A stretch of DNA of 64,000 nt. Source: Acorus gramineus (Eukaryota > Streptophyta > Magnoliopsida > Acorales > Acoraceae). The position numbers and the translations under genes are program-made. The notes beneath the pieces were generated by a model that saw nothing but the letters and a program-made list of their open reading frames with translations, did no database searches and was not told where the DNA came from. The stretch covers positions 7,671,774 to 7,735,773 of the forward strand of contig CM060851.1 in the NCBI GenBank assembly GCA_030737835.1, read 5' to 3'. Shown one piece after another: positions 15,979-57,800 of this stretch; the first letter of the stretch is position 1; every line of letters starts with the position of its first letter.

Positions 15979-16405
15979 GGGAGAAATTCGGAACTTTTAA
16001 TGCTCGATTAGGATGATAAACGGACACGATTACGAGTTGATTATTTTGTGATTAGATTCTGACCGTTGGATCTACGTTTCCGTTTCGGACTCATTGTTTG
16101 GATGACACGTATGCGTGAGATGGAAAAATCGATGCTGAGTCACCACACAGTCAGCCAACATTTGAATGATTCAATGACACGCATTATTTGCAGACCAAAT
16201 AACGGAATGGAAAATGTCACAACCATATGTTCTTGGCAGTTTTTCTTTTTTTGGTCCTACTATATTTTAATTTTTTTAAATATGTATAGTTGTCTAACTT
16301 TATTTCTAAATTTAGATGAAAGGATATAGATTTATAACAAACCAATGAAAAGTGGTAGATGACATTTATCTAATTGAATGGAAATGCATTGGGTTAAAAA
16401 AATTA

Positions 16406-17354
16406 GGGTTAAAGACATTTAAGTCCCTACAAACATGAGAAAATCCATATAAGTCCCTATTAAAATTGGGACAGACGTACAAGTCCCTGAAAACTCAGAA
16501 AAACCCAATTATCATCCCTGAGTTAAATTTTCATCCAAACTTAACGGAATATTCCCAGAATATTCCATCACATATAATTGTGTTGACATTGAAGTCCTTA
16601 TAAACAGTCATAAAGACAAATTAATCCCTGCAAAAGATAAAATTGTCCCTAAAAGACTTTTACATTAAATTGTGTACACATAATAGACATTACAGTATTT
16701 ATAAATAATCGTAAAGACAAATTGGTCCCTGTAAAAGACAAAAATACCCCTGAATGATTTTTACATTTAATTGTGTAGACATTGCAGTCTTTATAAACAA
16801 TCATAAAGACAAATAATATAATTTTTTTATTTATTTTTTCATCTTCTATCCTATCAATCACACTCCACCTGAAGATCATAATTTGGATGTAAAACCAATA
16901 TTTTAACCGGTAGAATGCATTCTTCACTGGCATTTTAGTCTTTTATAGGGACCATTTTGTCTTTACGATTATTTATAAGGACTGTAATGTTTATCCAATT
17001 AAATGTAAAAATCTTTTAGGGGCAATTTTGTCTTTTGTAGGGATTAATTTATCTTTATGATTGTTTATAGGGACTGCAATGTGTACACAATTTAATGTAA
17101 AAGTCTTTCAGGGGCAATTTTGTCTTTTGCAGGGACTAATTTGTCTTTATGACTGTTTATAAGGACTTCAATGTCTATACAATTATATGTGATGGAATAT
17201 TCTGAGAATATTCCGTTAAGTTTGGATAGAAATTTAACTCAGGGATGATAATTGGATTTTTCTGAGTTTTCAGAGACTCGTACGTCTGTCCCAATTTTAG
17301 TAGGGACTTATATGGGTTTTTTCATATTTGTAGGGACTTAGATGTCTTTAACCC
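16406..17354. mobile_element. Foldback (long-TIR, Mutator-type) element, 949 bp
   Basis: Almost the whole element is an inverted repeat. The left end reads GGGTTAAAGACATTTAAGTC and the right end is its inverse, ending GTCTTTAACCC; the arms are about 400-450 bases and largely alike. A perfect 9-bp target duplication, AAAAAATTA, flanks it at 16397-16405 and 17355-17363, the size Mutator-like elements make. Inside each arm a block of about 100 bp beginning AAAGACAAATTA.TCCCTG is tandemly repeated two to three times. There is no open frame. A transcript crossing it would fold into a long hairpin. It lies upstream of UXS. Confidence 0.9.
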
Positions 17355-17363
17355 AAAAAATTA

Positions 17364-18990: not shown

Positions 18991-21900
18991 ATGGGTCTTG
19001 TAGAGGATTTATCTGCTAAACCGGCTTTGTTTAATGGTACCAATTTTAAGAGATGGAAGCAGCAATGTAGGTACTGGCTCACCACCCTAGGATTAATTTC
19101 TGTTTTAAGAACTATCTTAGGTGAAACCAAGTCCATTTCTGAAAAGTAGTCCACTTCCAATGACCCTTCCATTGACCTTACCAAGACTGCCAATCCCAAA
19201 GATACCGATACTGATTAAATAGCAGATCCGAAAGGAAAAACTGTTGAATTAGACGGTGCATGGGAAGAGAAAGATTTCTTGTGCCATGGTCGAATCTTGA
19301 GTGCCTTAACCCCTGAGTTGTATGATATTTTTTTTACAACTAAATGCACTTTTGAACAGTGGATAGAACTCGAGAAAAAATACAGTCTTAAAGATGCTGG
19401 GTTTGACAAATATGCCGTTGAAAAATTTCTAAAATTCAACATGGTTGATGATCTGTCCATCATGAAACAAATCGTAGATCTGAAAACCATTATTCATGAC
19501 ATTAGGAAATATGGGATGATTCTTGATGACACCTTTCTTGCATATTCCATTATTTTAAAAATTGCCTCCCTCTTGGTCTGATTTTTGTGTCAAACTTAAA
19601 CATTGTACAAGTATACCTGTCTTGAATGATATTTTGACCACTATTAGGATAGAGGATGAGCATAAGCTTCAAGACAAGGTGTCTAAACTTCCTAAAGAGT
19701 TTTCAGCCAAAGCCCACATAGTCGAAGGTTTTAAACCCAAGTCCAAACCTTTTAAAAAGAATGGGGCAGCTAAGGGTCATGTAAAGCCACAGTTTAAAAA
19801 GAAAACCAATGATGAAGCTGGTTGCTATGTGTGGGAAGAAAGGGCATATTGCAAGAAGTTGCTACAAACGAAAGACCCTTCCTCAAAATCTGAATTATAA
19901 AAGCAACCATCCTACCCAGAAGGACTCAGAGAATAAGGTCCAAGCGAATGTGGTGATTCATGACCCTGCACCCTTTTCCTCCCAAATTAGGTTTGTCACT
20001 GTCCATCCTGAGTTAGACTTAGCTTGTCAATCTACTGATTGGTGGATAGACACAGGAGCAAACATACACCTTTGTTCTGATAGATCCTTATTTACTTCCT
20101 ATCAGGCCATTGATGGATATGTGAGAATGGGCAACAACTCTGCTGCACGTATCATTGGAGAAGGACATGTTGATCTACTCTTCACGTCCGGGAATGTCCT
20201 ATCACTTCAAAACGTGCAACACGTTCCTGATTTGAGAAAAACTTAGTTAGTGGGTCGTTGTTGATACAGCAAGGTTATAAACTAGTTTTTGAAGCAAATA
20301 AGGTTGTAATAACTAGGTTTGAAACCTTCGTTGGGAAAGGCTATGTGTGTGATGGTTTGTTTAAGTTGAATATTATGTTTGAATGTTCTTCCTCTTTATC
20401 TACTACTGCTTTGAATGTTGAATCTCATAATATGTGGCATGCTCGTTTAGGACATATAAACTTAAGTACCATAAAAAGAATGATGTTTCTTGATTTGATT
20501 CCTAAATCTCATCTTAATGAAACTTCTAAATGTCATATCTGTGTGCAAGCGAAACAGCCTAGAAAACCTTTTAAATCTGTTGATAGAATTTCTGAACTGT
20601 TAGGCTTAGTACATAGTGACATATGTGAAATGAATGGTATGCTTACTCGAGGAGGAAAAAGATACTTCATAACCTTTATTGATGATTTTTCAAAATTTTG
20701 TTATGTGTATCTGTTGCGTTCAAAAGATGAGGCTCTAGAATTTTTCAAAATTTATAAGGCAGAAGTAGAAAATCAATTAGATAGAAAAATCAAAGTGATT
20801 AGGTCTGATCGAGGAGGTGAATATACATCGAATGAATTTCTAAATTGTGTGAAGATAATGGCATCATTCATCAGACCACCGCTCCCTATTCACCCCAATC
20901 CAATGGTGTGGCAGAACGGAAAAATCGGACCCTGTGTGACATGGTTAATTCCATGTTATCAAGTTCTGGTTTATCTGAAAATTTTTGGGGAGAGGCCATA
21001 TATTCTGCTTGTCATATTCTAAATAGGGTTCCCCTTAGAAATTGTGATAAAACTCCTTATGAATTGTGGAAAGGTAGGAAACCCAACCTTAGTAGCATCA
21101 AAGTTTGGGGATGTTTGGCAAAAGTGAGTATTCCTCCTCCCAAAAGAAGAAATTAGGATAAAAAATAATTGATTGTGCATTTGTGGGCTATGCATATCAT
21201 AGTGCTGCATATAGGTTTTTAGTCCTACAATCTGGAATTCTTGAGATCAGTCCCAACTCAATTATTGAGTCTAGAGATATTGTCTGTTTTGAAGATACAT
21301 TTCCCATGAAAACCACTATAGCAGTTGGAGATAAATCAATTTCTGATCTAAAGGCTTCTTCTTCTTCCTTGGTTCCATCTCTTGAGAATGAACCTGAATT
21401 AAGAAGAAGTAAGAGACCTAGAGTAGAAAAAACATTTGGAGATGACTTCCTCACATTTCTTATTGAAGATGATCCCTTAACCTTCAATGAAGCTATGTCA
21501 TCTCCAGATGCACCTTTTTGGAGAGAAGCAATTAATAGTGAATTTGATTCCATTCTTCATAATAATACTTGGGTTCTTACTTCTCTCCCTCCAGGCAATA
21601 GGACAATTGGGTGTAAATGGATCTTTAAAAAGAAATTTCGTCTAGATGATAAGGCTAGGCTAGTAGCAAAGGGTTTTAAACAAAAACATGTTGTGGATTA
21701 TTTTGATACATATTCACATGTCACTAGAATTACCACTATTCGGATACTGATCACATTGGCATCAATTCATGGTCTTGAAATCCATCAAATGGATGTCAAA
21801 ACTGCATTTTTACATGAAGATCTCAATGAGGAGATCTATATGGACCAGCGTGAAGGATTTGTGGTTTCTGGACACAAACAAAAAAGTGTAAACTCGTGAA

Positions 21901-22897
21901 ATCACTGTACGGGCTCAAACAAGCTCCTAAACAGTGGTATGAAAAATTTGATAGAGTCATCGCTTCTTTTGGTTTTAAAAATAATGAGTATGACAGATGT
22001 CTTTATATGAAAGTGAAATCTGATGCTTGTGTTATCCTTTGCCTATATGTTGATGATATTTTAATTTTTGGGTCTAATCAGGACATTATTGAAGAAACCA
22101 AAATTTTTCTTTCTAAAAACTTTGATATGAAAGATCTTGGTCATGCAAGTCTAATTTTGGGAATAAAATTAGTCAAGACTTCATCTGGTATTACACTTTC
22201 ACAATCACACTATATTGAGAAGATACTCAAAAAATTTGATATGTATGATTTTTCACCTGTGCATACACCATATGATTCATCAATTAAGTTGAAAAAGAAT
22301 TTGGGAGAACCTGTTGGACAGGAATTATATGCACAAATGATTGGAAGTTTAATGTATCTTATGAATTGCACTCGTCCTGATATTGCATATGTTGTTTGTA
22401 GGCTAAGTAGATACACAAGCAATCCTAATAAAGAGCATTGGACTGCACTCACACGTGTATTTAGATACCTGCGAGGATCTATTTCACTTTCATTACATTA
22501 TACTGGTTTTCCTCCTGTACTTGAGGGTTATTCTGACGCCAACTGGATCTCTGATTCAGTTGATATTAAATCAACCAGTGGCTTTGTGTTTTTGATAGGT
22601 GGTGCAGCAATAGCATGGAGGTCTGTTAAACAGACAGTAATTGCTCGTTCCACAATGGAATCAGAGCTTATTGCGTTGGATATTGCAGCTTCAGAGGCAG
22701 AATGGCTTAGGAATCTGTTGAGTGAGATTCCATTGATGGGAAAGCCTATTCCAGCAATTTCCATAAGATGTGACAACAAAGTTGTAATTGCAAAATCATT
22801 ACAAAATAATGATAATGAGAAAATGTCTAGACACTTGCGCTTGCGATATAAATCAATTCGACACCTGATTTGGGCTAAGTCTCTAAGACACTCATGA
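18991..22897 (+). pseudogene. Ty1/Copia gag-pol, decayed (copy 1)
   Basis: Order of domains: gag (from MGLVEDLSAKPALFNG), a CCHC zinc knuckle near 19820, aspartic protease (DWWIDTGA near 20040), GAG-pre-integrase (MWHARLGHINL and CHICVQAKQ), integrase core (DDF, then RSDRGGEYTS), reverse transcriptase (YVDDILIF) and RNase H. This order is Copia. Breaks: an early gag stop at 19147-19149 and another near 19216, a frameshift inside the zinc knuckle, a stop after the protease region at 20244-20246, frameshifts near 20845, 21155 and 21890, a small deletion at the KFRxDGSIEKY site, and loss of the RNase H end by a 404-bp deletion at 22867-22871. It cannot make a working polyprotein. Confidence 0.92.
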
Positions 22898-25393: not shown

Positions 25394-26283
25394 AACAACT
25401 CTGCTGCATGTATCATTGGAAGGACATGTTGATCTACTCTTCACGTTTGGGAATATCCCATCACTTCAAAATGTGCGGCACGTTCCTGATTTGAGAAAAA
25501 ACTTCGTTAGTGGGTCACTGTTGATACAGCAAAGCTATAAACTAGTTTTTGAAGCAAATAAAGTTGTAATAACTTGGTTTGAAACCTTTGTTGGGAAAGG
25601 CTATGTGTGTGATGGTTTGTTTAAGTTGAATATTATGTTTGAATGTTCTTCCTCTTTATCTACTACTGCTTTGAATGTTGAATCTCAAAATATGTGGCAT
25701 GCTCGTTTATGACATATAAATTTAAGTACCATAAAAAGAATGGTGTTTCTTGATTTGATTCTTAAATCTCATCTTAGTGAAACTTCTAAATATCATATCT
25801 GTGTGCAAGCAAAACAGCCTAGAAAATCTTTTAAATCTGTTGATAGAATTTATGATGTGTTAGGCTTAATACATAGTGACATATGTGAAATGAATGGTAT
25901 GCTTACTTGAGGAGGAAAAAGATATTTCATAACCTTTATTGATGATTTTTCAAAATTTTGTTATGTGTATCTGTTGCGTTCAAAAGATGAGGCTCTAGAG
26001 TATTTCAAAATTTATAAGGCAGAAGTAGAAAATCAATTAGATAGAAAAATCAAAGTGATTAGGTCTGATCGAGGAGGTGAATATACATCGAATGAATTTT
26101 CTAAATTATGTGAAGATAATGGCATCATTCATCGGACCATTGCCCCTATTCACCCCAATCCAATGGTGTGGTAGAACGGAAAAATCAGACCTTGTGTGAC
26201 ATGGTTAATTCCATGTTATCAAGTTCTAGTTTATCTGAAAATATTTGGGGAGAGGCCATTTATTCTGCTTGTCATATTCTAAA
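25394..26283 (+). pseudogene. Copia copy 2, protease-integrase part
   Basis: Resumes the same Copia family from the end of the protease region (AACAACTCTGCTGC, as at 20149) through GAG-pre-integrase and integrase (RSDRGGEYTS). It has stop codons, for example after HARL near 25712 and at 25909, and frameshifts. Its left part (5' LTR, gag) is missing. It is cut at 26283 by the Mutator-like element and continues at 36810. Confidence 0.9.
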
Positions 26284-26311
26284 GGGGGCATCTATCCCCA
26301 CACACCATTTA
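26284..26311 (+). repeat. MULE left terminal inverted repeat
   Basis: Identical over about 28 bases to the inverse of 36782-36809; beyond that the two ends differ. In MULEs the transposase binds near these ends. Confidence 0.95.
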
Positions 26312-27169
26312 CCTATTATCACCAACCTAAAATAAAAATGAAAATTAGATGCAGTCCTTGTTCTTTGCCACTGAAAACACCAACCACCTCTCCCCACCAA
26401 CCCAAAAATAAAGTTCTCTGTTCCCACCAACCTAATGAATTGAAAAACCCCAAACCCATTTCCTCTCTCTCTCTCTCTGCATTTCCTCGTCGTCGACCAC
26501 GACGTCCGCCATCGACGGCACCGGTCGGAAGCCCATTCACCCTCCGGCGACCCTCCCATTGACATTGCACAAACTATCCAACGATTCTCTATTGTATAAA
26601 TCGATGCCCTATTCCAAACCCTTCACTTAGGTGAGTATCCATGCTTCATCCTCTGTTTTTATAAAAAAAATTTGGTTGCCAATGGTGTTTTGGCATTGGT
26701 GATGTTTGTTTAGGGTTTGTGGGTTCCAAAATGGCTGTATTTTTAGGGTGTAGGGTTGTGGTAGTTGGGATGGTGTTGGAGGGTGATTCATTTGTGTGTA
26801 ATGTGTAGTTCATTGTAGTGTTGGTGGTGGTGATGGTTGTTGTTAAAGGATATGTGGTGGTGTTGTGGTCATGGTGTGGAAGGTGGTGATTGTAGGGTTA
26901 TTTGTTGATGGTTGGCTATAGTTATAGTCATTAAATTTATTTTATGTCCTTACTAACCATTTGTATTAAATTATTTCTCAACGAAATGTTTTTATAGGAA
27001 TTGGAGTTACACGGTTTATATTGATATATTCAATATCTAGACACACCACAGGAATTTGAAGTATGGGCACTGAGGTTTGTCTTTATATCTCCTAATATTT
27101 ATTTTTTCTATATTGAAAAAATACAAGTACATGACGGCCTATGTTTTATTACAATTGCAGAAGTATGTA
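26312..27169 (+). promoter_or_regulatory. MULE transposase leader region
   Basis: Non-coding. It has a CT run (26463-26480), a GC-rich tract (26485-26570), and a strong donor site, ACTTAG then GTGAGTATCC, at about 26630/26631, so a leader exon spliced to an acceptor such as TTTTTATAG at 26997 or ATTGCAG at 27160 is likely. No TATA box is certain. Confidence 0.45.
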
Positions 27170-29963
27170 ATGCCTATTGTTGAAGATGTTGAGGTGTCCA
27201 TGCAAGAGGAGAGGGAGGCCATATCCAATGAGGTGATCTCCAACATTGACACCACCGAGCATTTTTCTACATCCTTGGTAATGTCAACACAGAACCATTT
27301 GTAGATATGCGATCCTTGGTAATGTCACCTGAATATAAATGAATTCGTCATTGTTTCAGAGCTTTGACAATCGAGCGGAGCTAATTGATTGGGTTAAAAG
27401 AGTAGGTAGAAACATCGGAGTCATTGTAGTCATTGGGCGGTCGCATCAAGCAGACTCTCGTAGATCAGCCCGAGTGGATCTCATATGTGAAAGAGGGGGT
27501 AAGTTTGACAATCATCGAAGCACGAAAGACGCTGGATTGGAAGACACCGAGAAAAAAATAAAGAAGCGCAGCCAAACTGGTACGAAGAAGAGTGGTTGTC
27601 CTTTCAAGTTGCGCTCCATCAAAAATTCAGGAAGATGGTTATTAAGAGTTCTATGTGGTTTACATAATCATCCACTCATTGCCTACTTTGAGGGTCACTC
27701 ATTCGCTGGGAAGTTGATGGATGATGAATATACTGTGTTAGAGGGGATGTCATTGAGTGGTATGCGACCTCGCGATATCCTGACCCACCTGAAGAACAGA
27801 GATCCTGCCAATGTTAGCTCAATAAAGAACATATATAATGCTCGGGCAAAATTGAGGGTCCAGGAGACTTGTGGTCGTACACATATGCAACAATTGATGA
27901 AGTTAATCTACGAGCATGGGTATATTGAGCGGCATCGAGCACAAGAGGAGGTTGAGATCGTGTCAGAGATTTTTTTTGCTCATCCTACATCTGTCGAGCT
28001 AGTGAAAGCATTTCCTATTGTGTTTATGATTGACTGCACTTACAAGACGAACCGATATAGAATGCCACTATTGGAGATAGTGGGGGTCACTTCGACAGGC
28101 AAGACTTTTGCTGCTGCTTTTGTGTATTTGAGTGCAGAAAAGGAAGAGAATTACACATGGGCGATGGGGTGCTTCAATTCAATATTTGATGGTGCAACCC
28201 CCCCAAAGGTAATTATCACTGACCACGAACTTGGATTGATGAAGGCTATATCTGTAGTCTTTCCGTCGACAGTAAATCTCCTGTGTCGCGTTCACATTAC
28301 GAAGAACGTGGTGAAAAATTGTAGAAAAGAGTTTTCTGATGTAGAAACATGGGACGCATTCATGGGATCCTGGGCTGATGTGATGAAGTCATTCACCGAG
28401 GCGGATTTCTATAGAAAATTGCAACTTCTGGAAGATGAGTACCGTGCCTATCCAAATGTATTGTCATACCTTCATGCCACTTGGTTAGACAAGCACAGAG
28501 AAAGGTTTGTTACCGCCTGGATCGATAGGCAAATGCACCTTGGTAACACATCAACTAACCGCGTTGAAAGTCACCATTCAAAGCTGAAGAGGGCATTGCA
28601 AACATCCACTCACAATTTTGTGAGCTCGTGGCAGATGATCCACAATTTGTTGGAGTTGCAGATTTCTGATATCAGGGCTTCCTTCGAAGAGAGTCTAACA
28701 AAGATTCCACACAGGTTTCAAGGGTATCTATTCCGACATCTTGTTGGTGTAGTCTCCATTTATGCCCTTCAAAAGTTGCATATGGAGATATGTGCAAGTG
28801 ATGGAGTAGATCAATGCGAGAGCATATGTGATCATGCCTTGTACTCAAGCTGTGGATTACCTTGCGCCCATATGATCGCGGGATACAGGCGAGATGGCGG
28901 TACCATACCAATTTCAGAGATTCATCCATTTTGGCGAAAGCTTTGGATTACACCATTGATCGAGGACTTCGCTGATGAGGTCGATATTAGCCTGGAGATT
29001 GATATGCTTTTCAAACGCTTCACCGATGGAAACATCATACAACAAAAGGAGATCAAGAAAGTGTTGAAAAAATTGAGTGACCCAACTGCCACTCTCCTTT
29101 TAGAGCCCGTTGTGAAGGTGAACACAAAGGGTCGAAAGAGGAGCGGGAAAAAAAGAGCTAAAGCCCTTGCGGAAGAATCAACCAAACGATCTCCTAGTGG
29201 CTTTGAGTATGTCCTTCAGTCGGTGCATCGTCCAAATTCAGTTGATCCAGTTATTCCCATGCAAGCCACAGAAGCATCAAATCCCAAACAATGTAAACGA
29301 CCAAAGATGGTTATGCAAAGGGGAAGGGTTCTTCGGAATCGAGCCATCGAAGGTGAGATATGCATGGCCGAATTCCCACCATTCCTAAGCCCGTTCATCA
29401 GTAGCATATATGATGTCATTGGGGATGGTCATTGTGGCTTTAGGGTTGTTGCATCTTTCTTGGGTATGGGAAATGAAGGGTGGAGAGATGTGAGGAACGA
29501 TCTCCTTTTGGAGATTGAGCAACATCCAGATATGTACATGAGGGTGTTATATGGGTTGAGTCGAGTTGAAGAGTTGAAGAACATTCTCCATTGTCAATCG
29601 ACCTTTGCAGACAAAGAGCATTGGATGTCAATGCCAGACATGGGGTTTGTGATAGCTTCATGTTATAAGGTCGTGGTTGTGCATATATCCAAATCCCAAT
29701 GTCTCACCTTTTTCCCATTAAGAGATCCACCCCCACCAATCAGCTCTCATCGGATCCTCTCAATCGGTTATGTTCGTGGATGTCACTTCGTCGGTTTGGA
29801 GCTCAAATCAAACGCTCCACTACCTCCAGCTGCCCGAACGTGGGATCGTTTTCGTCTTGATGCGGCGAGTACATGGGTAATGCCATACGAAGATAGGATG
29901 CATCGATTCAGGGCTCTTGCCGGTACTGATGTAGCAGTGGTAGATGTTATTGATCTTAATTAG
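27170..29963 (+). CDS. MULE transposase fused to OTU-type cysteine protease domain
   Basis: Likely exons 27170-27277 and 27360-29963 (donor TCCTTG/GTAATG, acceptor TTGTTTCAG/AGC, phase 0), about 903 residues; the ATG at 27339 would lie in the intron. Order: N-terminal tail; FAR1/GCM-like zinc region (Cys79, Cys116, His138 and His140 in GLHNHP); MULE DDE core with Asp261 (DCTYKTN), Asp324 (ITDHELG) and Glu439 (NRVESHH); SWIM-like finger (SCGLPCAH, about 533-540); a basic linker (KGRKRSGKKRAKA); then an OTU domain from about residue 715 with DGHCGFR (Cys728) and the distal His845 in RGCHFVGLEL. The transposase cuts and joins the element ends. OTU domains cleave ubiquitin or ubiquitin-like chains; the domain's target here is unknown. 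The frame is open and the catalytic residues are kept, so it may be active. Confidence 0.93.
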
Positions 29964-30374
29964 GACACTAGCATATGTGTCCATTCAATGTATATGGTGC
30001 CCACATAATACCCAAAAAGTGTAAGCTTTCGTATTTTTTGTAAGACTTACACAAATTTGCCATTGTGAATCATTTTGTATAGGCAAATGTATAAGGGTAT
30101 GTCGTTTTGTATATGCAATGTTCACAGGAGAAGTCCACTGATTATGTAAATGTCTTGAAGCTCATTTTGTATAGACAATGTAATAGGTAGTGCAGTGGTG
30201 ATGTATATCTCTTGTTAGTACCTAGCATAGAAAGTGTGAAATGATATGGGGGAAGTGTTGATGTAAATGACCATAGAACAGTAAATAAAATAGTTTTATA
30301 TTCTATCTTATTGTGTTCTCATTTTTTACAAAATACATTGAAGTTCTTGATTTTGAAAATTCACCCACAGTTAT
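29964..30374 (+). other. 3' flank of the MULE transposase gene
   Basis: AT-rich and non-coding, with diverged short repeats of a TTTTGTATAG.CAATGT.. type (30076-30185). It probably includes the 3'UTR. Confidence 0.4.
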
Positions 30375-32045
30375 AAAATCTCCAGGTCGACAGACTTTTT
30401 GTCACCTACTAACACACCAGAACGACAGGATGTCTGTCGAGTCGGTATAAAACTCATCGACACACCCGCTGTCGAACATAATTTTCACAAATCTTTGGAA
30501 AAAATCTCCAGGTCGACAGAATGTTCGTCGCCCACTTATACATGAGGTCGACTAAAGGTTCGTCGACCAGGGGTCGCCGAAATCAAAGTCGACGAACAAA
30601 GGTCGGGTTGACTGAGAAGTTGTCGTTCTTTGGTTGAAGGATCTCTTCGCATATATCCAGTTCGACTTTCTTCTTGTCGAACTATTTGAAGAACTTCGAC
30701 AAAGCTTCTGTCGAACCTGTGTTTCAAGATTCCAATGTATAAAATCTCCAGGTCGACAGACTTTTTGTCGTCCGGGTAAACATTTGGTCGACAGAGGGTT
30801 TGTCGAACGCGGATCGCCGAAAGGGAAGTCGACGAACAAAGGTCGGGTTGACTGAGAAGTTGTCGTTGATCTGTTGAAGGATCTCTTCGTTTTAAGTCCA
30901 GTTCGACTTTCTTCTTGTCGAACTATTTGAAGAAGTTCGACAAAGCTTCTGTCGAACCTGTGTTTCAAGATTCCAATGTATAAAATCTCCAGGTCGACAG
31001 ACTTTTTGTCGTCCGGATAAACATTTAGTCGATAGAAGGTTTGTCGAACGAGGATCGCCGAAAGGGAAGTCGACGAACAAAGGTCGGGTTGACTGAGAAG
31101 TTGTCGTTCTTTGGTTGAAGGATCTCTTCGCATATATCCAGTTCGACTTTCTTCTTGTCGAACTATTTGAAGAAGTTCGACAAAGCTTCTGTCGAACCTG
31201 TGTTTCAAGATTCCAATGTATAAAATCTCCAGGTCGACAGACTTTTTGTCGTCCGGGTAAACATTTGGTCGACAGATGGTTTGTCGAACGAGGATCGCCG
31301 AAAGGGAAGTCGACGAACAATGGTCGGGTTGACTGAGAAGTTGTCGTTCTTGGGTTGAAGGATCTCTTCGCATATATCCAGTTCGACTTTCTTCTTGTCG
31401 AACTATTTGAAGAAGTTCGACAAAGCTTCTGTCGAACCTGTGTTTCAACCCAATGGAAAAAATCTCCAGGTCGACAGACCTGTTGTCGTCTGGATATGCA
31501 TTTGGTCGATAGAAGGTTTGTCGAACGAGGATCGCCGAAAGGGAAGTCGACGAACAAAGCTCGGGTTGACTGAGAAGTTGTCGTTGTTCGGTTGAAGGAT
31601 CTCTTCGTTTTAAGTCCAGTTCGACAAGATTCTTGTCGACCAATGATAAGAATTTCGACAAAGCTTCTGTCGAACCTGTGTTTCAAGATTCCAATGTATA
31701 AAATCTCCAGGTCGACAGACTTTTTGTCGTCCGGGTAAACATTTGGTCGACAGAGGGTTTGTCGAACGAGGATCGCCGAAAGGGAAGTCGACGATCAATG
31801 GTCGGGTTGACTGAGAAGTTGTCGTTCTTTGGGTTAATCCGCTCATTTTGTACTCCAGTTCGACTGAGCAGTGGTCGAGCTCTTATATAATAAATCGACA
31901 TACCCTTTGTCAAGCTGGTGTTTCAAAAATCCACATTAAAAAATCTCCAGTTTGACTGACTATTCGTCACCCACTTGTACATTCAGTCAATAAATACTTG
32001 TCGACCCGAAGCCGAGTAATTTTACGTCGCCCAATCACCACACAG
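30375..32045. repeat. Higher-order tandem array, about 240-bp units of TCGAC..GTCGA palindromes
   Basis: Units begin AAAATCTCCAGGTCGACAGA at 30501, 30741, 30982, 31222, 31459, 31700 and 31940 (last partial), with a degenerate start at 30375; spacing is 237-241 bp. Neighbouring units are almost identical in the middle and diverge at the edges. Each unit holds about six short imperfect palindromes of the pattern TCGAC, 8-10 bases, GTCGA (for example GTTCGACTTTCTTCTTGTCG), spaced 30-40 bp, so a smaller repeat is nested in the larger one. It lies between the convergent 3' ends of the transposase and the plant mobile domain pseudogene. Long open frames across it are by-products of a unit length near a multiple of three. 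Confidence 0.95.
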
Positions 32046-32386
32046 GTTGACGATATGCGTATGAAGTCTAGATTTATTTGCCTGACAAACTTGTACGTTG
32101 ACCTGCACATTTTGGGATTTTATTATCCATTTGGAGAACTAACACCACTTATGAATACTTTAAGACAACCAGTGAGCATTTCACACACATTTATAATTGA
32201 TTCGTTCACATACATAAAACCCTCCAATAAACTGGAACCTTTCACACACATTTATAATTACTCAATAATTCGATAACACTAGAAAATCACATACATTTAA
32301 CTTGTTTAAAGGATTCTAATTGTTGGTGAACCCTGTACGTACAAAATGATGCATTCAAATAATTGTCATACTCAAGGAAACAAGCA
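32046..32386. other. Spacer between array and PMD pseudogene
   Basis: AT-rich and non-coding. A short duplication (TTTCACACACATTTATAATT) occurs twice at about 32177 and 32239. Confidence 0.5.
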
Positions 32387-34475
32387 TCAATGTCGGTCAT
32401 GCTGCCTTTTCTTCATCCTACAAGCTGTTGTCGCTGCATCGTCCGGAGGTGTGCCATCTTGTAGATACTGAATCACCTCTCGAGCCACTCTTTGTGCTGT
32501 CGAAATGGTGGTTCCCCTAACCAAAATCAATTCCAGATGGCGAATAGCGATGGTACGCTATAGGAAAAATCAGAGGGCATTCAATACCAAGTCTCTAATG
32601 ACAGAATTAAAAATAGCATATTCTAGATGTAAGACATTACCGCATTAACGTCGACATCAGGGGTCATCATGAGCGACAGTTTCCTGTTTTGAGGGTTCTG
32701 TACAAACCTGTGACTCATCCTCTCAAACCACTCCATGCACCCAGTCACTGATTCACACGGTATACGTAATGGATCTCCCCTCGTAGCTGTGCTAATGACC
32801 TGATCCTCCCATTGCTCCAGCTGCTCAACTAAACCCCATAATCAGCCCTATAGCTATTAGCACCACGTGATCGTCGAACAACTCCCAGAGGGCGGATTGG
32901 TGGTTTTGGTATAGTCTGAACGTGCCCTAGTTGGCGTAGTACTCGATCTGGCATATATGGCTCGAAAAAACGATGGACACACAAACACCCCTTGTAGAAG
33001 GCGTACTCCTCAAGCGGTCTACGATCACGAACAGAGTGGTAGGGATCGAAATCAAACTACACACAGTGATGAGCAACCATTATAATATAATCATTACCCA
33101 TAAATCACAAATTATGTAAAAGAAATACCTGGTCAACTGTCGCCATGTCGAGGATCTCCCGAATTACATCTATTGAATTCTTCTGCAAACTAGGTACATG
33201 ACGGTAACGTCTCCATCGATCCGATCGGGGTTTTGCTCATTGTACATTGGATTCGGCACTGGTCTCAAAAATGGGAGGTGCTCGTAGATCCACACCTAAA
33301 TAGCACAAGATAATGTGAGTTATGAAAAAAATCACAATTATTAGCATCAATCAACCATTCAAACAAAAATTCATATAATATGGAACACTATGAGTACCTC
33401 TAAAAGTGTGAGATAACCACATATTTGCTTCGCTTTTGCACGAGATGCAATCCCTAGTTGTCGATAGAGTTGAGCAAGTGCACCCGCTCCCCATCCGTAT
33501 GAACTAATATCCGAGATGTCTATCAAAAAATTGAGATATGCAACAGGGACAGTGATGCCAGTCTTATCACTAAACAATGTACATCCTAACAAGAAGAGCA
33601 GGTACGCTCTAACAGCGCAATCGATATGATCGTCAGACAACCCAACCGACTTATATGCAAACTGATCCCTTAACCACACAAGTCTAACTGCACTACTATT
33701 GTACACTCGTAACTCATCTTGTGCTTTTACTAGTGGCACACCAAGATTGTCCTTCATTAACTTTGATGCATCAGTGATGGTCAAGTTTGTGTACCCATGC
33801 AAAGCCTTTCCCATCACAGGAATGCCAACTATTTGGGCAACATCATCAAGTGTCACTGTCATTTCCCCAAATGGTAGGTGAAATGAGTTGGTCTCGGGGT
33901 GCCACCGCTCAACCATTGCTGTAATTAATGGGTTGTTCAAGGTTTTGAAGCAATACGCTCTCAAGGGCCATAGCCCACTTTCTTTCAACCTATCAGTAAA
34001 TGTGAGGGATTCCTTCTCCAAATCCCAACTCTCGAGTGTTTTAGCAGTTGGCGACATCGCAATAAACGATCGCCCTACACGATATGATTTATCATATATC
34101 AAATGAAATTATTAACATTGAATTTTATAACATATCAATATAGACCAAATAAGAATTTCAATTGCATACCTTGCCATTCCACACACGATAAGCGATATGA
34201 TGTCTATAGTCCACTAAAAGTTCATTCGTTTGGGGCCCACCGGGGAAAGGACCTTTTATACTGAGTTCATCTATGTCAGAATCTGGATCTGGTCTTTCAA
34301 TTTCCCTCACTGCCACCTCCTGTGCATCTACCTCATCCTCAGATTCAAGAACATTATCATGGGCGACGTCTTCTTCGTGATATGGAACTATTGACGATGA
34401 AGGAGCATCTTTGGCCAATCTTTCTGAAACACGTTTACGAAGGGATGCAGTTTGTGGAACACGTTTAGGAGCCAT
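32387..34475 (-). pseudogene. Plant mobile domain (PMD) protein, frameshifted MULE passenger
   Basis: PMD proteins occur both as host genes (MAIN/MAIL family, involved in silencing and genome stability) and inside transposons. Pieces on the minus strand: ATG at 34475 (MAPKRVPQTASLR) to about 34170 with the conserved DYRHHIAYRVWNG; a core exon about 34073-33402 (SFIAMSPTAKTLESWDLE, LPFGEMTVTLDDVAQIVGIP, YGWGAGALAQLYRQLG); about 33297-33130 (VWIYEHLPFLRP, then RWRRYRHVPSL in another frame); about 33062-32820 (PYMPDRVLRQLGHVQTIPKP); and a tail ending at stop 32387-32389. Breaks: one frameshift near 33230, another near 32837 (after RADYG), and splice phases of the first two pieces that do not fit. 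It is recognisable but probably dead, unlike the transposase in the same element. Confidence 0.85.
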
Positions 34476-36781
34476 CCTGTGTATTTTTTTCAAACCATTA
34501 CCAACTATGAATGGGTATATTGCTTACACAAACACATCATTCAACGATGATAAAACATGGTTATAATGGTCATATATATTGACTTAAGTAAACAATAAGC
34601 AACTAAAAAAATTAAATTTCCAACAAATTGGAACGGGATATCCATGTCAACAATGAAACATATTCAAAGATTGGAGATTTATAAGTATATAATTAGGTGA
34701 TCATTGTCAACTACAGTTGGCGTATTTTAATAAATATATATACTTGTTATACATCAACTATATACTGAGATTAATCTCATGTACTTTTCTATGCTCACCC
34801 CTCCCTTACACGACATGCCTAGCTAGGCCCAAGAACACGTTTTTATACCAAACGTAGTGTTAATCAGAAAGAAATACAACTTCTCATCTAATTGTAGTCT
34901 AATTAAATTTAATATACATAAAGAATGCAGTTTAATCAAAGTATAGATATGAGAGAGAGATCTGGTGGTCCTGCATTGCGCATCATTTTCAAATGTATAA
35001 CAATATACAATCGGTTTGTTATTATATTATATGACAATCAATGTTTCATACAATTATATAGGCTAAGCTAACTTGGTTTATAGTGCACGAAATACTACTA
35101 AAAACAAAGCTAACAAATGTATGACATGCTGATAAAAACAATCCCATATATTAAAAGATAAGAATACAAAAAAAAAATACTGAATAATATCTCAATCTTA
35201 AGATGAACTTGAAAAAAATAATGTCAATATAAAGAGCCCAAAAGCCAAATCAAACCATTAGTAGGAACAGGTGGTCTTGTCCTAGTTCATGCTTATGCAA
35301 AAAATCATTTTTTCTTTCTTTGCTATTCACTCACTGATGACTAGAGGCATATGAGGAGACTAGATTTCATATATAAACCTACTATTTTTATCTATGATTT
35401 CTCCATACATCCCATTACAAACCAATGTTCTTTTATCCACAATGACAAAATATGGTTAGACAAGAACAAATGCGTTGAAAACCCTATTCTTTCACAGCAA
35501 CAACAATGATAGTCCCCATCTATAACCATACCAATTATAAAGAATTATTTGACAACCCCAATTTCATTCACAACCCACATTTTCTCTCTTTTTATTTCAC
35601 TCAACACACCTGAAAAACTGAATTTCTTTCACAACAATGATAATCCTAATTTCTCACCATGCCAAGAGAGCATGCATCTTAGCTTTAAAGTGTGAAATAA
35701 TCTTATCTTCGTAGTGTGAAATAAACTGATCTATGTCATTATTAGATCTACAAATCAGCTTCTTCTTATTTTCCCAATTGTTCTCAAAGAACATTTGATA
35801 CACAGTTACAATTTACAAAGCAACAATTTGTAATTATTGCTCACTCAAAGCGATGACTGAATTCATTCAATATCCCAATTAACAACTGACATAAACATCA
35901 AGAAGCATCTTAGCTTCTTCATGTTCTCTAAATTATTCTACAAGAACGCAGACACATGTGCATAACACCAACAAGTTATTGACTCAGAGTTCAACACTTC
36001 ATACAATGGTCATCCATTCATTACATATAATATAAATATTTTGCTTCAAATCATGCAATAATAAGACAGCTTTATATGATGATGGTCTTCACATCCAAAC
36101 AAAGATTTCAACACATTCAAGGCTGTGAAAAGAGAGAGAAAGCACACAGTATGATGCCCAAAAAAAAAAAAAAAAACTCATGACGATATATGCAGGGGAT
36201 GACTCACGATACCTCGATTGTACATTTCTTTTAGACCTAGGTAATGGAACAAATGCTCTCAAACACCCAACTTTCACTCAACAATTCAACAACATTTTTC
36301 CCATTAAACCAAACTCTGAAAACCCTAGTTTCTTATCCTATGAACAATAACAAACTAACAACAATGATAATCATCAATGGATCACCATACAAATCCTTTA
36401 AAAGGTATTGTAGTTAACATAAGTTGATATTTAGAGGGAGTGGATGAGCAAGAAGAAAAGATCATACGGCCATACCGAGTAGATAAGACAAGGGAACCAC
36501 ATCGGCGGACGGGGACGACGAAAGAGGACCGGGACAGCTACGGCAGCGGCACTGGACGACGGCGGCGGCGGCACAGGGACGATGATGAAATTTTGACAGG
36601 GAGAAGCAGTCGACTGTTTTATGAAGGAGAGAAGGGGAAAACAAAATGAAGAGAGAGTTTTGGGGTAAATGAAATGGTGGTTGGTGGCTTTAGGTATTCA
36701 GTTTAGGCATATTTATAGGATAGTGTGTTTAGTGAAACACTAAGTGATGGATTGTGAATAAAGTCGGTTGGTTGGGTGAGT
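34476..36781. other. Non-coding right third of the MULE
   Basis: Very AT-rich, no gene seen, frequent stops. A GC-rich patch at 36470-36610 mirrors the GC-rich leader at 26485-26570 near the other end and may be the promoter or leader of the PMD gene. Confidence 0.5.
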
Positions 36782-36809
36782 TAAATGGTGTGTGGGGATA
36801 GATGCCCCC
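36782..36809 (-). repeat. MULE right terminal inverted repeat
   Basis: Inverse of 26284-26311 over the full 28 bases; it abuts the right target duplication TATTCTAAA. Confidence 0.95.
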
Positions 36810-36818
36810 TATTCTAAA

Positions 36819-38815
36819 TATGGTTCCCCTTAGAAATTGTGATAAAACTCCTTATGAATTGTGGAAAGGTAGGAAACCCAACCTTAGTAGCATCAAAGTT
36901 TGGGGATGTTTGGCAAAAGTGAATATTCCTCCTCCCAAAAAGAAGAAGTTAGGACCAAAAACAATTGATTGTGCATTTGTGGGCTATGCATATCATAGTG
37001 CTGCATATAGGTTTTTAGTCCTACAATCTGGAATTCCTGAGATCAGTCCCAACTCAATTATTGAGTCTAGAGATGTTGTCTTTTTTGAAGAATTTTTCCC
37101 ATGAAAACCACAAATTCTAAAGCTATTGGACATAAATCTACTGCTGATCTAGGGGCTTCTTCTTCTTCCTTTGTTCCATCTCTTGAGAATGAACCTGAAT
37201 TAAGAAGAAGTAAGAGACCTAGAGTAGAAAAAACATTTGGAGATGACTTCCTCACATTTCTTATTGAAGATGATCCCTTAACCTTCAATGAAGCTATGTC
37301 ATCTCCAGATGCACCTTTTTGGAGAGAAGCAATTAATAGTGAATTTGATTCCATTCTTCATAATAATACTTGGGTTCTTACTTCTCTCCCTCCAGGTAGT
37401 AGAACAATTGGGTGTAAATGGATCTTCAAAAAGAAATTTCGTCCAGATGGCTCTATAGAAAAATACAAGGCTAGGCCAGTAGCAAAGGGCTTTAAAAAAA
37501 ACCTGGTGTGGATTATTTTGATACATATTCTCCTGTCACTAGAATTACCACTATTCGGATACTGGTCGCATTAGCTTCAATTCATGGTCTTGAAATCCAT
37601 CAGATGGATGTCAAAACCGCTTTTTTACATGGAGATCTCAATGAGGAGATCTATATGGACCAACCTGAAGGATTTGTGGTTCCTGGACAAGAACAGAAGG
37701 TGTGTAAACTCGTGAAATCTCTGTACGGGCTCAAACAAGCTCCTAAACAGTGGTATGAAAAATTTGATAGAGTCATCGCTTCTTTTGGTTTTAAAAATAA
37801 TGAGTATGACAGATGTCTTTATATGAAAGTGAAATCTGATGCTTGTGTTATCATTTGCCTATATGTTGATGATATTTTAATTTTTGGGTCTAATCAGGAC
37901 ATTATTGAAGAAACCAAAATTTTTCTTTCTAAAAACTTTGATATGAAAGATCTTGGTCATGCAAGTCTAATTTTGGGAATAAAATTAATCAAGACTTCAT
38001 CTGGTATTACACTTTCACAGTCTCACTACATTGAGAAGATACTCAAAAAATTTGATATGTATGATTTTTCACCTGTGCATACACCATATGATTCATCAAT
38101 TAAATTGAAAAAGAATTTGGGAGAACCTGTTGGACAGGAATTATATGCACAAATGATTGGAAGTTTAATGTATCTTATGAATTGCACTCGTCCTGATATT
38201 GCATATGCTGTTTGTAGGCTAAGTAGATACACAAGCAATCCTAATAAAGAGCATTGGACTGCACTCACACGTGTATTTAGATATCTGCGAGGATCTATTT
38301 CACTTTCATTATATTATACTGGTTTTCCTCCTGTACTTGAGGGTTATACTGACGCCAACTGGATCTCTGATTCAGTTGATATTAAATCAACCAGTGGGTT
38401 TGTGTTTTTGATAGGTGGTGCAGCAATAGCATGGAGGTCTGTTAAACAGACAGTAATTGCTCGTTCCACAATGGAATCAGAGCTTATTGCGTTGGATATT
38501 GCAGCTTCAGAGGCAGAATGGCTTAGGAATCTGTTGAGTGAGATTCCATTGATGGGAAAGCCTATTCCAGCAATTTCCATAAGATGTGACAACAAAGTTG
38601 TGATTGCAAAATCATTACAAAATAATGATAATGAGAAAATGTCTAGACACTTGCGCTTGCGATATAAATCAATTCGGCACCTGATTTCTCAGGGGATAAT
38701 TACTCTAGAGTTTGTGAGATCCGAGAGAAATCTCGCAGATCATTTCACAAAAGGACTTGTCAGACGACTTGTCCATGAGACATCGAGGGGGATGGGGCTT
38801 CAGCCCATTATATAA
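36819..38815 (+). pseudogene. Copia copy 2, integrase end, reverse transcriptase and RNase H
   Basis: Continues the frame cut at 26283: integrase C-terminal part (VPLRNCDKTPYELWKGRKP), linker, then reverse transcriptase ([23 protein letters not shown]) and RNase H ([20 protein letters not shown]), ending GMGLQPII at the stop 38813-38815. The last 435 residues (37508-38815) are one unbroken frame, better kept than copy 1. Frameshifts or stops near 37104 and 37495-37510 break the link to the integrase. Confidence 0.93.
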
Positions 38816-54800: not shown

Positions 54801-57800
54801 CCATTGCCTTCATCTTCTCTCGGTTTTTTTCATTTTGTTGGGAGATCCCTCATCTTTGTACGAGGGGTGACATTTTCTTAAAATGAAGCTCCAATCTTCT
54901 TTTTCAAAAAAGGTGTAACAAGGTGCTGTGAGGCGAAAAATACATATGGTCCAAACATTTTTTTGCAAAATGTAGACACTAACCTCTCAGGACTCAAACC
55001 CAAGACTTCGACTAGTTAGCACGAGCACTTGACCATTGATCCAAGCAACGATCCCGTGTGAAACTCCTAAAGAGTGCATCTGCTCCTTATAACCTCTTTT
55101 TATTCTCGAGGATTTAACTTCCACATTCAGAAACAGAAAAACAAAGGAAAAACAAAGAAGATAAAACAGGAAGGGAAGAAGAAGCTAAGAAAGGGGGAAA
55201 AATCAATGGTATCAGTAGGTCATCACTGGGGAATTAAAAGAATTACTTGTTTGTGTGTGTGCAAGTTATATAGATGACGCATATCAGGAAAAACACAGCT
55301 ACAAGTGAAGAAGTTCCAATGCTCGCAGATTTCAAGGACAAACAATACATTGGATAAGCATGCAGCAATAGCACTACAATTATTTTCTTACAGAAATTGC
55401 ATTTTAAATAGATTCTGGCTCAAAATATTTCATCAAAAATATTTTTTTATAAGAATTGATTGCGACTTACAGATGATTTTTGTTTTCTCCTCCTCAACTT
55501 GCTTGATGCTTTATCACTGCTTGGTTTTGCTTGTACAGAGTTGTTCAGATGAATTTCTTCAGTTGTTTCATTCTGAATTTCCTCAGTTGTTTCATTCTCA
55601 ATGGAGGGACTGATGCAGTTTTTTCCCCTCTTGATGGCTGTAGCTCTATAGCCCGAGACATGACCAATAATCAACTTTTGATTTCCATTGATTGGGCTAG
55701 GAGAAGACAGAAAATTTAATTTTCTTGCAACACCATTATCCTCATCAGTTAAGGCTTCAGAATCCGCTGGCCCTTGCCCAACTGTGTTATTCTCCTTCAG
55801 TTTACCCATCGCACTGTTCAGCTTACCTTCATTTTGCAAAATAGTCATGGATTCAGGCAGTTTGATCATTTCTGTCTTTTCCTGGAACATAAAATCATGT
55901 GAGGAATTGTTGCTGGGATTGGATGTCTCAAGGAAACAGTGTTCTCCGGAATCTCCAGTTCCTGGCTTGCTGCTACCAGCATGGTTGTGATTATCTGGCG
56001 GAATTGGTAGCAATGAATCTCTACAACCATGGTAATGATTATCTGGCTGAACTGATAGAAATGAATCACCACATTCTCCTATCCCATCTTCTCCTGCATG
56101 CAAAGCACTGCTTTTGGTCTCTTTTGGTTCAGGAGAGACCATGGTTTCACTGCTAAATTTGTTCATGTCAGTTGTTTTACTTTCCAGATCCTTACTGGTC
56201 CCTGTCATCACATGTTTACTCATGCTTCTCGTTATGGGCCGCCAACACTTTGCACTGCTCAGCCTGTCTTTATTTTTCATGTCACTCATGGTTTCAGACC
56301 GTCTGACCATTTCCGTATTTTCCTGGAACATGAAATCACGTAAAACACCATTACTGGACTTGGATGTCTCAAGTAAAATGTATTCCCCTGAAACTCCAGT
56401 TCCAGGCTTGTTTTTACCAGCATGTTTCTGATTTTCTAGTTGAGCTGATAGCAATGACTCTCCACATTCTCCAATCCCATTTTCTCCTGCATGCAAACCA
56501 CTGGTTCTGTTCTCTCTTGGTTCAGGGGAAGCCATATTCTGACTGCTACACTTGTTCATGTCAGCAAAGCTAATTGCTTTAGTTCCCTGCTCCTTACTTG
56601 TCGTTGTCATCACATGTTCACTCACACTTCTCATCATAGGTTGAGTACTGTTTTCCACATCCACAGGCCTTCCAGCATGTTTCTGATTATCTGGTTGAAC
56701 TGATAGCAATGACTCTCCACATTCTCCAATCCCATTTTCTCCTGCACGCAAGCCACTGGTTTTGTTCTCTCTTGGTTCAGGGGAAGCCATATTCTGACTG
56801 CTACACTTGTTCATGTCAGCAAAGCTATTTTCTTTAGTTCCCTGCTCCTTACTTGTCGCTGTCATCACATGTTTACTCAGACTTCTCATCATAGGTTGAG
56901 TACTGTTTTCCACATCCACAGGCCTTCCAGATGTGGCTCTCCTGGAAGAGTGGACGCTAAAAGTCCTCATAATTTCTGAAAGGAGGCTTTTTCTCAACTG
57001 ATCGTCAGGAGTGCCTGGGGTGGAATTCAAGAGATCATGCACTCGATGTATGGGCAACTCATCCCAGCTGAATGAGGGAGCCTGACCTGAATTGACAGCT
57101 GAAGATTTGGATGGATTGCCAGAACATGGGGTAATTAGGGGATTGCTTGTAGACTTGGGTTCCCCACAATACTGTTCGGCACAGACTTTCCAATTATAAG
57201 GGAAACCCATCAGAAAGAAATCACAGGCCTGCAAAATAGATGACCAAATATTTAAAACTAAGTATTACTGAAATTAAAATACCCTTTTAACACAGGAAAA
57301 CATAAATTATAAAACTGAAATACAAGCAGTTTTGTGCAAACACACTTACCCACACACGTCTGAAATGGACCGAAAATGATAAGCATATACAGGTTCATTT
57401 CGAAATTATTGTTTCAAATTTTGGGAACAAGAAAGTTTTATTATAATTATTTCGAGTACATGATTGACTATTTGATGCAAAAAAAGGAGAGCCCGCAATA
57501 AAGAAATAAAGAGAGTTTGTTGTCCACTGCCCGACAGCTCTTGAAAAAATCATCAGTTTGCCTCCGACGGCCCAAAAGACCAGCCGCCAAACAATTTTCC
57601 TGACTGATGAACAAGCAGAGTTGCCATCACTGATTGACAAACCAAAGCAATTGTCATTAGCTTTGATTGACCCAAACTCATATTTGAATATCATCAAAGA
57701 TTTAATGAGATATTTGAGCCCAAAATATCATGGGAAGACCAATTCAAATGATTCATGACGGCCAAGAACAATAGTTGTCAATGGGAGGGTCCAAGTAGAA

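Follow-up and report, generated by a model that had tools for sequence, protein, structure and literature searches.

Cysteine protease domains of the ovarian tumour (OTU) and Ulp1 types have already been described in transposons, including one Mutator-like element (MULE). We analysed a 64,000-nucleotide stretch of Acorus gramineus DNA (GenBank assembly GCA_030737835.1, contig CM060851.1, positions 7,671,774 to 7,735,773 of the forward strand), referred to below as the window. It contains a MULE whose transposase is joined at its C-terminus to an OTU-like domain. The fusion is real, conserved and family-wide, and represents a plant variant of a known association. Published systems are described here from the accessible parts of the cited papers, where the role of ubiquitin or SUMO protease domains in transposons has only been suggested (for Ginger1, Helentrons, a Hydra MULE and plant Ulp1 MULEs).

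Among the closest known systems is the Hydra MULE MuDR-6_HM (group 14), to which PMC6446971 (Table 1) assigns a single open reading frame and an 'Ovarian Tumour Gene' motif. Like the window element it is a Mutator-like element with OTU. Unlike the window element it comes from an animal, and its table entry gives no terminal inverted repeat, no zinc finger and no plant mobile domain (PMD). Ginger1 transposases carry a C-terminal OTU or Ulp1 domain, never both in the accessible part of PMC2836005, and one has neither. The authors suggest that the protease domain is active in transposition, for example via repair (PMC2836005). Ginger1 thus shares with the window element a C-terminal OTU (or Ulp1) cysteine protease on a DDE transposase, but the transposase is of the Gypsy-integrase type, the hosts are animals, the target duplications are CCGG or CCGT, and the element is not a MULE. 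OTU is also carried by animal and some fungal Helentrons (PMC6431247).

Among plant elements, KAONASHI and other MULEs carry Ulp1, and VANC genes that contain Ulp1 target non-coding motifs (PMC2528002, PMC13317346). These are plant MULEs with a protease domain for ubiquitin-like proteins, as is the window element, but their ULP fold lies in a gene apart from the transposase whereas here OTU is fused to it. Plant MULE groups 42 and 47-50 have an antisense PMD gene (PMC6446971, Table 1). They resemble the window element in this gene, in the 9-bp duplication and in a SWIM-type finger, but the plant rows of that table list no OTU. Grasses and Amborella have MULE transposases with a fused PMD (PMC5418596), while in the window element it is a separate gene. 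On a soybean BAC, 'Ovarian tumor otubain' genes were annotated and the accessible part of the paper names no MULE fusion (PMC2613891). In the open-licence literature searched we recognised no description of a plant OTU-MULE fusion. The MULE and OTU domain pair is common in plant database entries and may be mentioned in an older survey that dealt with WRKY-GCM1 fingers and transposons.

Dozens of copies are available in one plant genome, some of them young and nearly identical, selection has been measured on both transposase domains, and there is a candidate array for docking. Together these make the role of the domain testable. The interest of the family lies in this unusual testability, and is lessened by the OTU-bearing transposons already in print.

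The transposase frame and its domains

An open frame on the forward strand (27339-29963) runs for 874 codons without a stop. It encodes four domains in one protein: a FAR1-like finger, the DDE core, a SWIM-like finger and, last, the OTU-like domain. The original prediction, made from the DNA alone, had described one continuous frame at 27170-29963. The part that joins the four domains is indeed unbroken, but the longer interval is interrupted by a putative 82-nt GT..AG intron (27278-27359), read from the sequence. Removal of this intron brings the ATG at 27170 into frame and yields a putative first coding exon of 36 codons (27170-27277, forward strand) with a predicted in-phase GT..AG join to 27360. 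The residue numbers of the original prediction are 29 higher than ours, as expected if translation starts at ATG 27170 and the predicted intron is removed. Its D261, D324, E439, C728 and H845 are the D232, D295, E410, C699 and H816 of the numbering used here.

All domains of the transposase are encoded on the forward strand. The N-terminal FAR1/AFT-like finger (residues 8-115, 27360-27683) matched Pfam AFT with 27.5 bits (cut-off 21.6), and Pfam FAR1 remained below its cut-off (27.0 vs 28.1 bits). The MULE DDE core (residues 228-430, 28020-28628) contains D232, D295 and E410. Pfam PF10551 (MULE) matched residues 228-323 with an E value of 4.7e-24 and Transposase_mut gave 9e-9. Domain-model scans also matched the core to IS256 models, and no integrase model was among the matches at E up to 1. 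The SWIM-like finger (residues 497-511, 28827-28871) was read from the sequence as C497-D-H-x5-C-G-L-P-C-A-H511. Its CxH...CxH pattern has CxH where the canonical SWIM motif begins with CxC, and Pfam SWIM gave no match. A linker (residues 591-684, 29109-29390) leads to the OTU-like domain (residues 685-825, 29391-29813), which reads D-G-H-C-G-F-R around Cys699 (29433-29435) and G-C-H-F around His816 (29784-29786).

Conservation of the fusion in the genome

The 398.6-Mb genome (137 contigs) was searched for the family. Only 52 of 1044 candidates were scored, so all counts are lower bounds. At least 54 family matches were found, which correspond to 52 retrieved places, one of them in the window. 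At least half of the DDE part was covered in 52/52 places and at least half of the OTU part in 49/52. As 49 of the 52 related places hold both parts, the fusion goes beyond chance, and the proposal that it is kept applies to the whole family. When the OTU part alone was used as the query, 138 matching pieces were found in the genome. The three places without the OTU part look interrupted, not primitive. L020 has the OTU start, with the remainder 3.0 kb further on; L048 has a piece, perhaps of the same copy, 10.9 kb further on; and in L042 the frame is cut off.

Copies were classified as long-frame if their open frame began no later than residue 10 and extended at least to residue 815. 20/52 places passed, including L019 despite masking after residue 823 (1497 N), and 32 failed. 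In the 20 long-frame copies D232 was always present, D295 was present in 19 with one gap, and E410 in 19 with one Lys. D696, Cys699, His816 and the GLPCAH of the SWIM-like finger were found in 20/20. Over all places the Cys was present in 50 of 52 aligned (the two others are Tyr, both in broken frames) and the His in 48 of 48 aligned. The proteins of the window's five closest siblings are 97.6-98.4% identical to it. At the other extreme, a decayed relative (L062) is 48% identical over residues 165-638 and 42% over residues 637-869, and retains the Cys and His (OTU part, 47% identity; range 42-47%). Since this relative has the same domain order, the fusion is old within the lineage.

Selection on the OTU part

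Each subfamily seen among the 20 long-frame copies was represented by one selected copy, six in all, to give 15 pairs. The uncorrected ratio of non-synonymous to synonymous differences (pN/pS), taken over all 15 pairs with 1000 bootstraps over codons, was 0.199 (0.158-0.249) for the OTU part, 0.232 (0.190-0.277) for DDE and 0.466 (0.378-0.562) for the fast-evolving linker. Corrected dN/dS was 0.108 for DDE (13/15 pairs), 0.295 for the linker (12) and 0.083 for OTU (11). Judged by these codon ratios, the OTU part shows purifying selection as strong as that on the DDE core. The original prediction had called for the two parts to be measured separately and had named a frayed or neutrally evolving OTU part as evidence against itself. 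The opposite was found, with purifying selection and an invariant Cys and His (20/20).

Six copies that are about 98% identical were also compared. Counted over 15 non-independent pairs, their OTU part had 30 synonymous vs 5 non-synonymous differences and their DDE part had 17 vs 15. Ratios within these six were 0.04 for OTU, 0.09 for the SWIM region, 0.24 for DDE, 0.53 for the FAR1-like finger, 0.67 for residues 116-227 and 1.09 for the linker. Because the OTU domain is kept about as carefully as the cutting domain, it is probably useful to the transposon.

Is the C-terminal part an OTU domain?

A profile built from three solved OTU domains scored the OTU part at 9.9 bits, compared with a maximum of 7.1 in 5000 shuffles. 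When the same profile was run on the window, the transposase frame ranked first of 268 stop-to-stop frames of at least 60 aa (6.8 bits, E 0.14), ahead of the next-best at 4.0 bits. In a set of 17 family members, 15 scored 8.7 to 13.0 bits, and 5100 shuffles peaked at 6.0. Alignment to solved OTU domains by hhalign placed both Cys and His on the catalytic residues, as the original prediction would have it, with a probability of 49.5% (P 1.7e-4) for the OTU part and 25% (P 7.7e-4) for the whole protein. A profile of the 17 members was compared with the PDB and 5/8 listed matches were OTU proteins. Three of these were entries for VCPIP1, an OTU protein, and the other two were viral OTU chains for which a match to an OTU consensus was also obtained. 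Searches of the PDB with phmmer found no OTU match for the whole protein. The viral OTU chain 6dwx came first for the OTU part (E 0.5). For the Cys-loop half it took second place (E 0.075) after a repeat protein, the individual repeats of which reach 2.4 bits. In the D-G-x-C loop the D and C are found in 20/20 long-frame copies, one of which has V for G, and the His is followed by an aromatic residue (HF in 20/20). Taken together, these results suggest that the C-terminal part is a diverged OTU domain, a call that rests on weak profile matches and on motif order.

A number of results weigh against reading this part as a working OTU protease under selection. Pfam OTU matched neither the window's OTU part nor any of the 17 members (0/17) at E up to 10, and a genome-wide search with PF02338 gave 4 matches, none at the family's places. 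All OTU profile matches are weak, with hhalign probabilities of 25-51%, and in the profile versus profile comparison only the Cys half aligned (51%, P 1.5e-4). The 8 PDB matches of the family profile had E values of 0.53-1.8, none significant alone. Two of the 17 members, L018 (2.8 bits) and L047 (-0.2 bits), fall inside the shuffle range. With a host OTU protein (L063) as the phmmer query against the set of 17, the best family member reached E 0.01 and the window member E 0.35. Single-sequence AlphaFold models were too poor to be of use (pLDDT 37 and 36). Four of the 20 long-frame copies (L015, L028, L029, L030) have one stop inside their match. In the corrected dN/dS ratios several dS values are saturated, and 9 to 14 of 15 pairs were usable by region, the rest giving no dS estimate. 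Finally, OTU proteases usually have N or D as the third catalytic residue, two after the His. At this position the long-frame copies have V (17) or Q (3), never N or D, and the 17-member set has V 13, Q 3 and I 1. An acidic residue, which might conceivably serve, stands five after the His in 17/17 members. The description of the domain as apparently catalytic therefore holds for the invariant Cys and His and fails for the usual third residue, whose absence leaves activity unproven.

The Pfam OTU model does not detect the domain, so any census of OTU proteins based solely on it would overlook such cases. Pfam, PHROGs and NCBIfam returned nothing relevant for the OTU part; the only matches were NCBIfam glucose-6-phosphate isomerase (E 0.28) and Pfam ImmE5 (3/17 members, best E 0.26). 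No relatives were found in the scans made of viral, GTDB and plasmid collections. A DGHC/DGNC-type DNA pattern occurred in 0 viral contigs and in a single bacterial contig (L001), where an early stop follows the match and there is no further likeness, and this was judged to be chance.

The host OTU gene is doubled on contig C11. The two loci (L063 and L064) have identical 289-aa frames about 703 kb apart, and a recent duplication or an assembly duplicate is possible.

Possible roles of the OTU-like domain

The explanation that we consider probable is that the window holds a copy of an autonomous-type MULE family in which the C-terminus of the transposase is a diverged OTU-family cysteine protease domain that the family needs, most likely to remove ubiquitin. 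The DNA-binding parts would bring the OTU domain to the element. There it may remove ubiquitin from the transposase itself or from proteins at the element, possible targets being chromatin, silencing or repair factors. The transposition complex would then be spared degradation, or the element spared silencing; in either case the domain might protect transposase or chromatin from ubiquitin. Convergence favours a function linked to ubiquitin or SUMO, since Ginger1, Helentrons, the Hydra MULE and plant Ulp1 MULEs carry such domains.

The strongest competitor, which we rate as rather unlikely, is an OTU fold that binds ubiquitin or a partner, or aids transposase assembly, without cutting. The replacement of the usual third residue by V or Q in 20/20 copies and a divergence too great for Pfam are what such a non-catalytic domain might show. 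Against it, Cys and His are both kept in 20/20 copies and again in L062, and a binding module does not obviously need both. We find it improbable that the OTU part acts in proteolytic processing of the element's own protein, for instance by cleavage in the linker. The fast evolution of residues 591-684 (pN/pS 0.466) lends this weak support, as loosely constrained regions evolve in the same way. Against it, OTU enzymes in general act on ubiquitin linkages.

Two further explanations concern the origin of the gene rather than its activity. MULEs often take up host gene pieces (PMC6431247), so the OTU part could be a chance capture, the passenger of a Pack-MULE. A passenger sits poorly with an OTU part that occurs in 49/52 places, is constrained like the DDE core and is common to a 48%-identical relative. 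Barring an error in the alignment, we judged that the selection result refutes this explanation, and it keeps a very small probability. The least probable explanation, to which we give almost no weight, is a host-domesticated gene and not a mobile element. A long open frame under selection is compatible with domestication, but the inverted repeats, the target duplication, the unoccupied site in a copia paralogue and the five further near-identical long-frame copies speak against it, and for the window copy it was judged refuted.

Element ends and insertion site

Some MULEs have lost their terminal inverted repeats. The window element spans 26283-36810, and its length of 10,528 bp is set by paired 28-bp inverted repeats at both ends (left 26283-26310, forward strand; right 36783-36810, reverse strand) flanked by a 9-bp duplication. 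The left copy of the target site duplication, TATTCTAAA (26274-26282), is identical to the right copy, TATTCTAAA (36811-36819). The same 28-mer is found at the far ends of the sibling flanks, with 100% identity in L054, L055 and L056 and 96% in L057 and L058. A second copy (L006 with L057) ends in the same way and is flanked by the duplication ATACTCCAA, so that both copies examined have a perfect 9-bp target duplication. The DDE domain, the terminal inverted repeats and the 9-bp duplication identify the element as a MULE, and the inverted repeats and perfect duplications of these two copies show past mobility. MULE target duplications are 8-11 bp (PMC6446971).

The insertion host is a copia element, and a paralogous copia copy in the window has the target site once, at about 21015-21023. 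The two related copia copies lie at 19785-22897 and 25394-38815 and are about 95% identical, with the MULE inside the second.

A dyad array between the two genes

The element has a second, antisense gene (below), and the two genes are convergent. Between them lies a non-coding stretch (30350-32060) with a 240-bp tandem unit in 5.6 copies (30501-31832). All 23 CGAC-N9-GTCG dyads of the element fall at 30423-31861, and the remaining 53,472 bp of the window contain none. When the array was randomised with a first-order Markov model, the mean was 0.10 dyads and the maximum 2 in 500 versions.

Compared with the window array, the sibling arrays are 73-77% identical in L054-L057 and 92% in L058, while the proteins of these five siblings are 97.6-98.4% identical; 19-25 dyads are kept. 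The spacers vary: all 24 differ in L054, and 12 of 23 are distinct in the window. Arrays turn over by unit duplication, so that alignments may pair unlike units. In other subfamilies there are 17 dyads in L059 (N9), 10 in L061 (N9) and 25 in L060 (N8), and in L059 a 28 spacing between successive dyads occurs just as often (19). Arrays were judged in the 20 loci with 1.5-kb flanks plus 8 downstream flanks, the 500-bp flanks of L022-L053 being too short. The array was present in 16/20 of the loci with 1.5-kb flanks, which are not independent copies, and was not seen in the other four (L015, L018, L019, which is masked, and L020). GTCGAC hexamers were kept above all hexamers in comparison with L054 (0.65 vs 0.33) and L057 (0.85 vs 0.43). 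Against the closest array, that of L058, they showed no excess (0.75 vs 0.76), and several other hexamers were kept better than GTCGAC.

With dyad spacing kept while the sequence diverges, the stretch looks like a fast-evolving binding-site array. If a protein encoded by the element, either the transposase or the PMD protein, docks on element DNA, this array is the leading candidate for the site. WRKY-type fingers bind TTGAC half-sites, which resemble the TCGAC of the dyads, and the N-terminal finger may bind the array. We put forward, as a tentative and rather doubtful proposal, that a WRKY-GCM1-type finger of the element protein docks as a dimer on TCGAC-N9-GTCGA dyads and that the fused OTU domain there strips ubiquitin from chromatin or the transposition complex, which would make up a complete module for self-protection or against silencing. 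If true, this would be an independently evolved, ubiquitin-based counterpart of the motif-guided VANC/VANDAL system, with subfamilies told apart by a dyad spacing of 9 bp or, in one of them, 8 bp. VANC targets in VANDAL show comparable behaviour: they are short, tandemly repeated motifs in non-coding DNA and differ from one related element to another (PMC5735166). The motifs differ from those of the candidate array, which is a dyad of fixed spacing.

The antisense PMD gene

The second gene lies on the reverse strand (32387-34475), with several exons by GT..AG reading and ends set by eye. PF10536 matched 33371-34108 with an E value of 3.7e-43. The decay of this gene noted in the original prediction was confirmed as three frame breaks in the window copy. 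The conclusion drawn from it, that the fusion was kept while the second gene decayed and is hence the selected part, did not survive comparison with the siblings. In 4/5 of them (flanks L054-L057) the PMD exons are open at all three break places; in the fifth (L058) they are open at the first place and broken later. Between subfamilies the dN/dS of the PMD exons was 0.14, 0.15, 0.15 and 0.17 in the 4/7 pairs with a dS estimate; dS was 1.7 to 2.1, near saturation, and 3/7 pairs had no estimate. From the open exons of the siblings and the low dN/dS, both genes look maintained in the family, the window copy having lost one.

Other features of the window

Outside the element, an inverted repeat at 16403-17357 has arms of about 400 bp with 88% identity. 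On the reverse strand, an open frame of 605 aa with internal repeats was found at 55447-57264.

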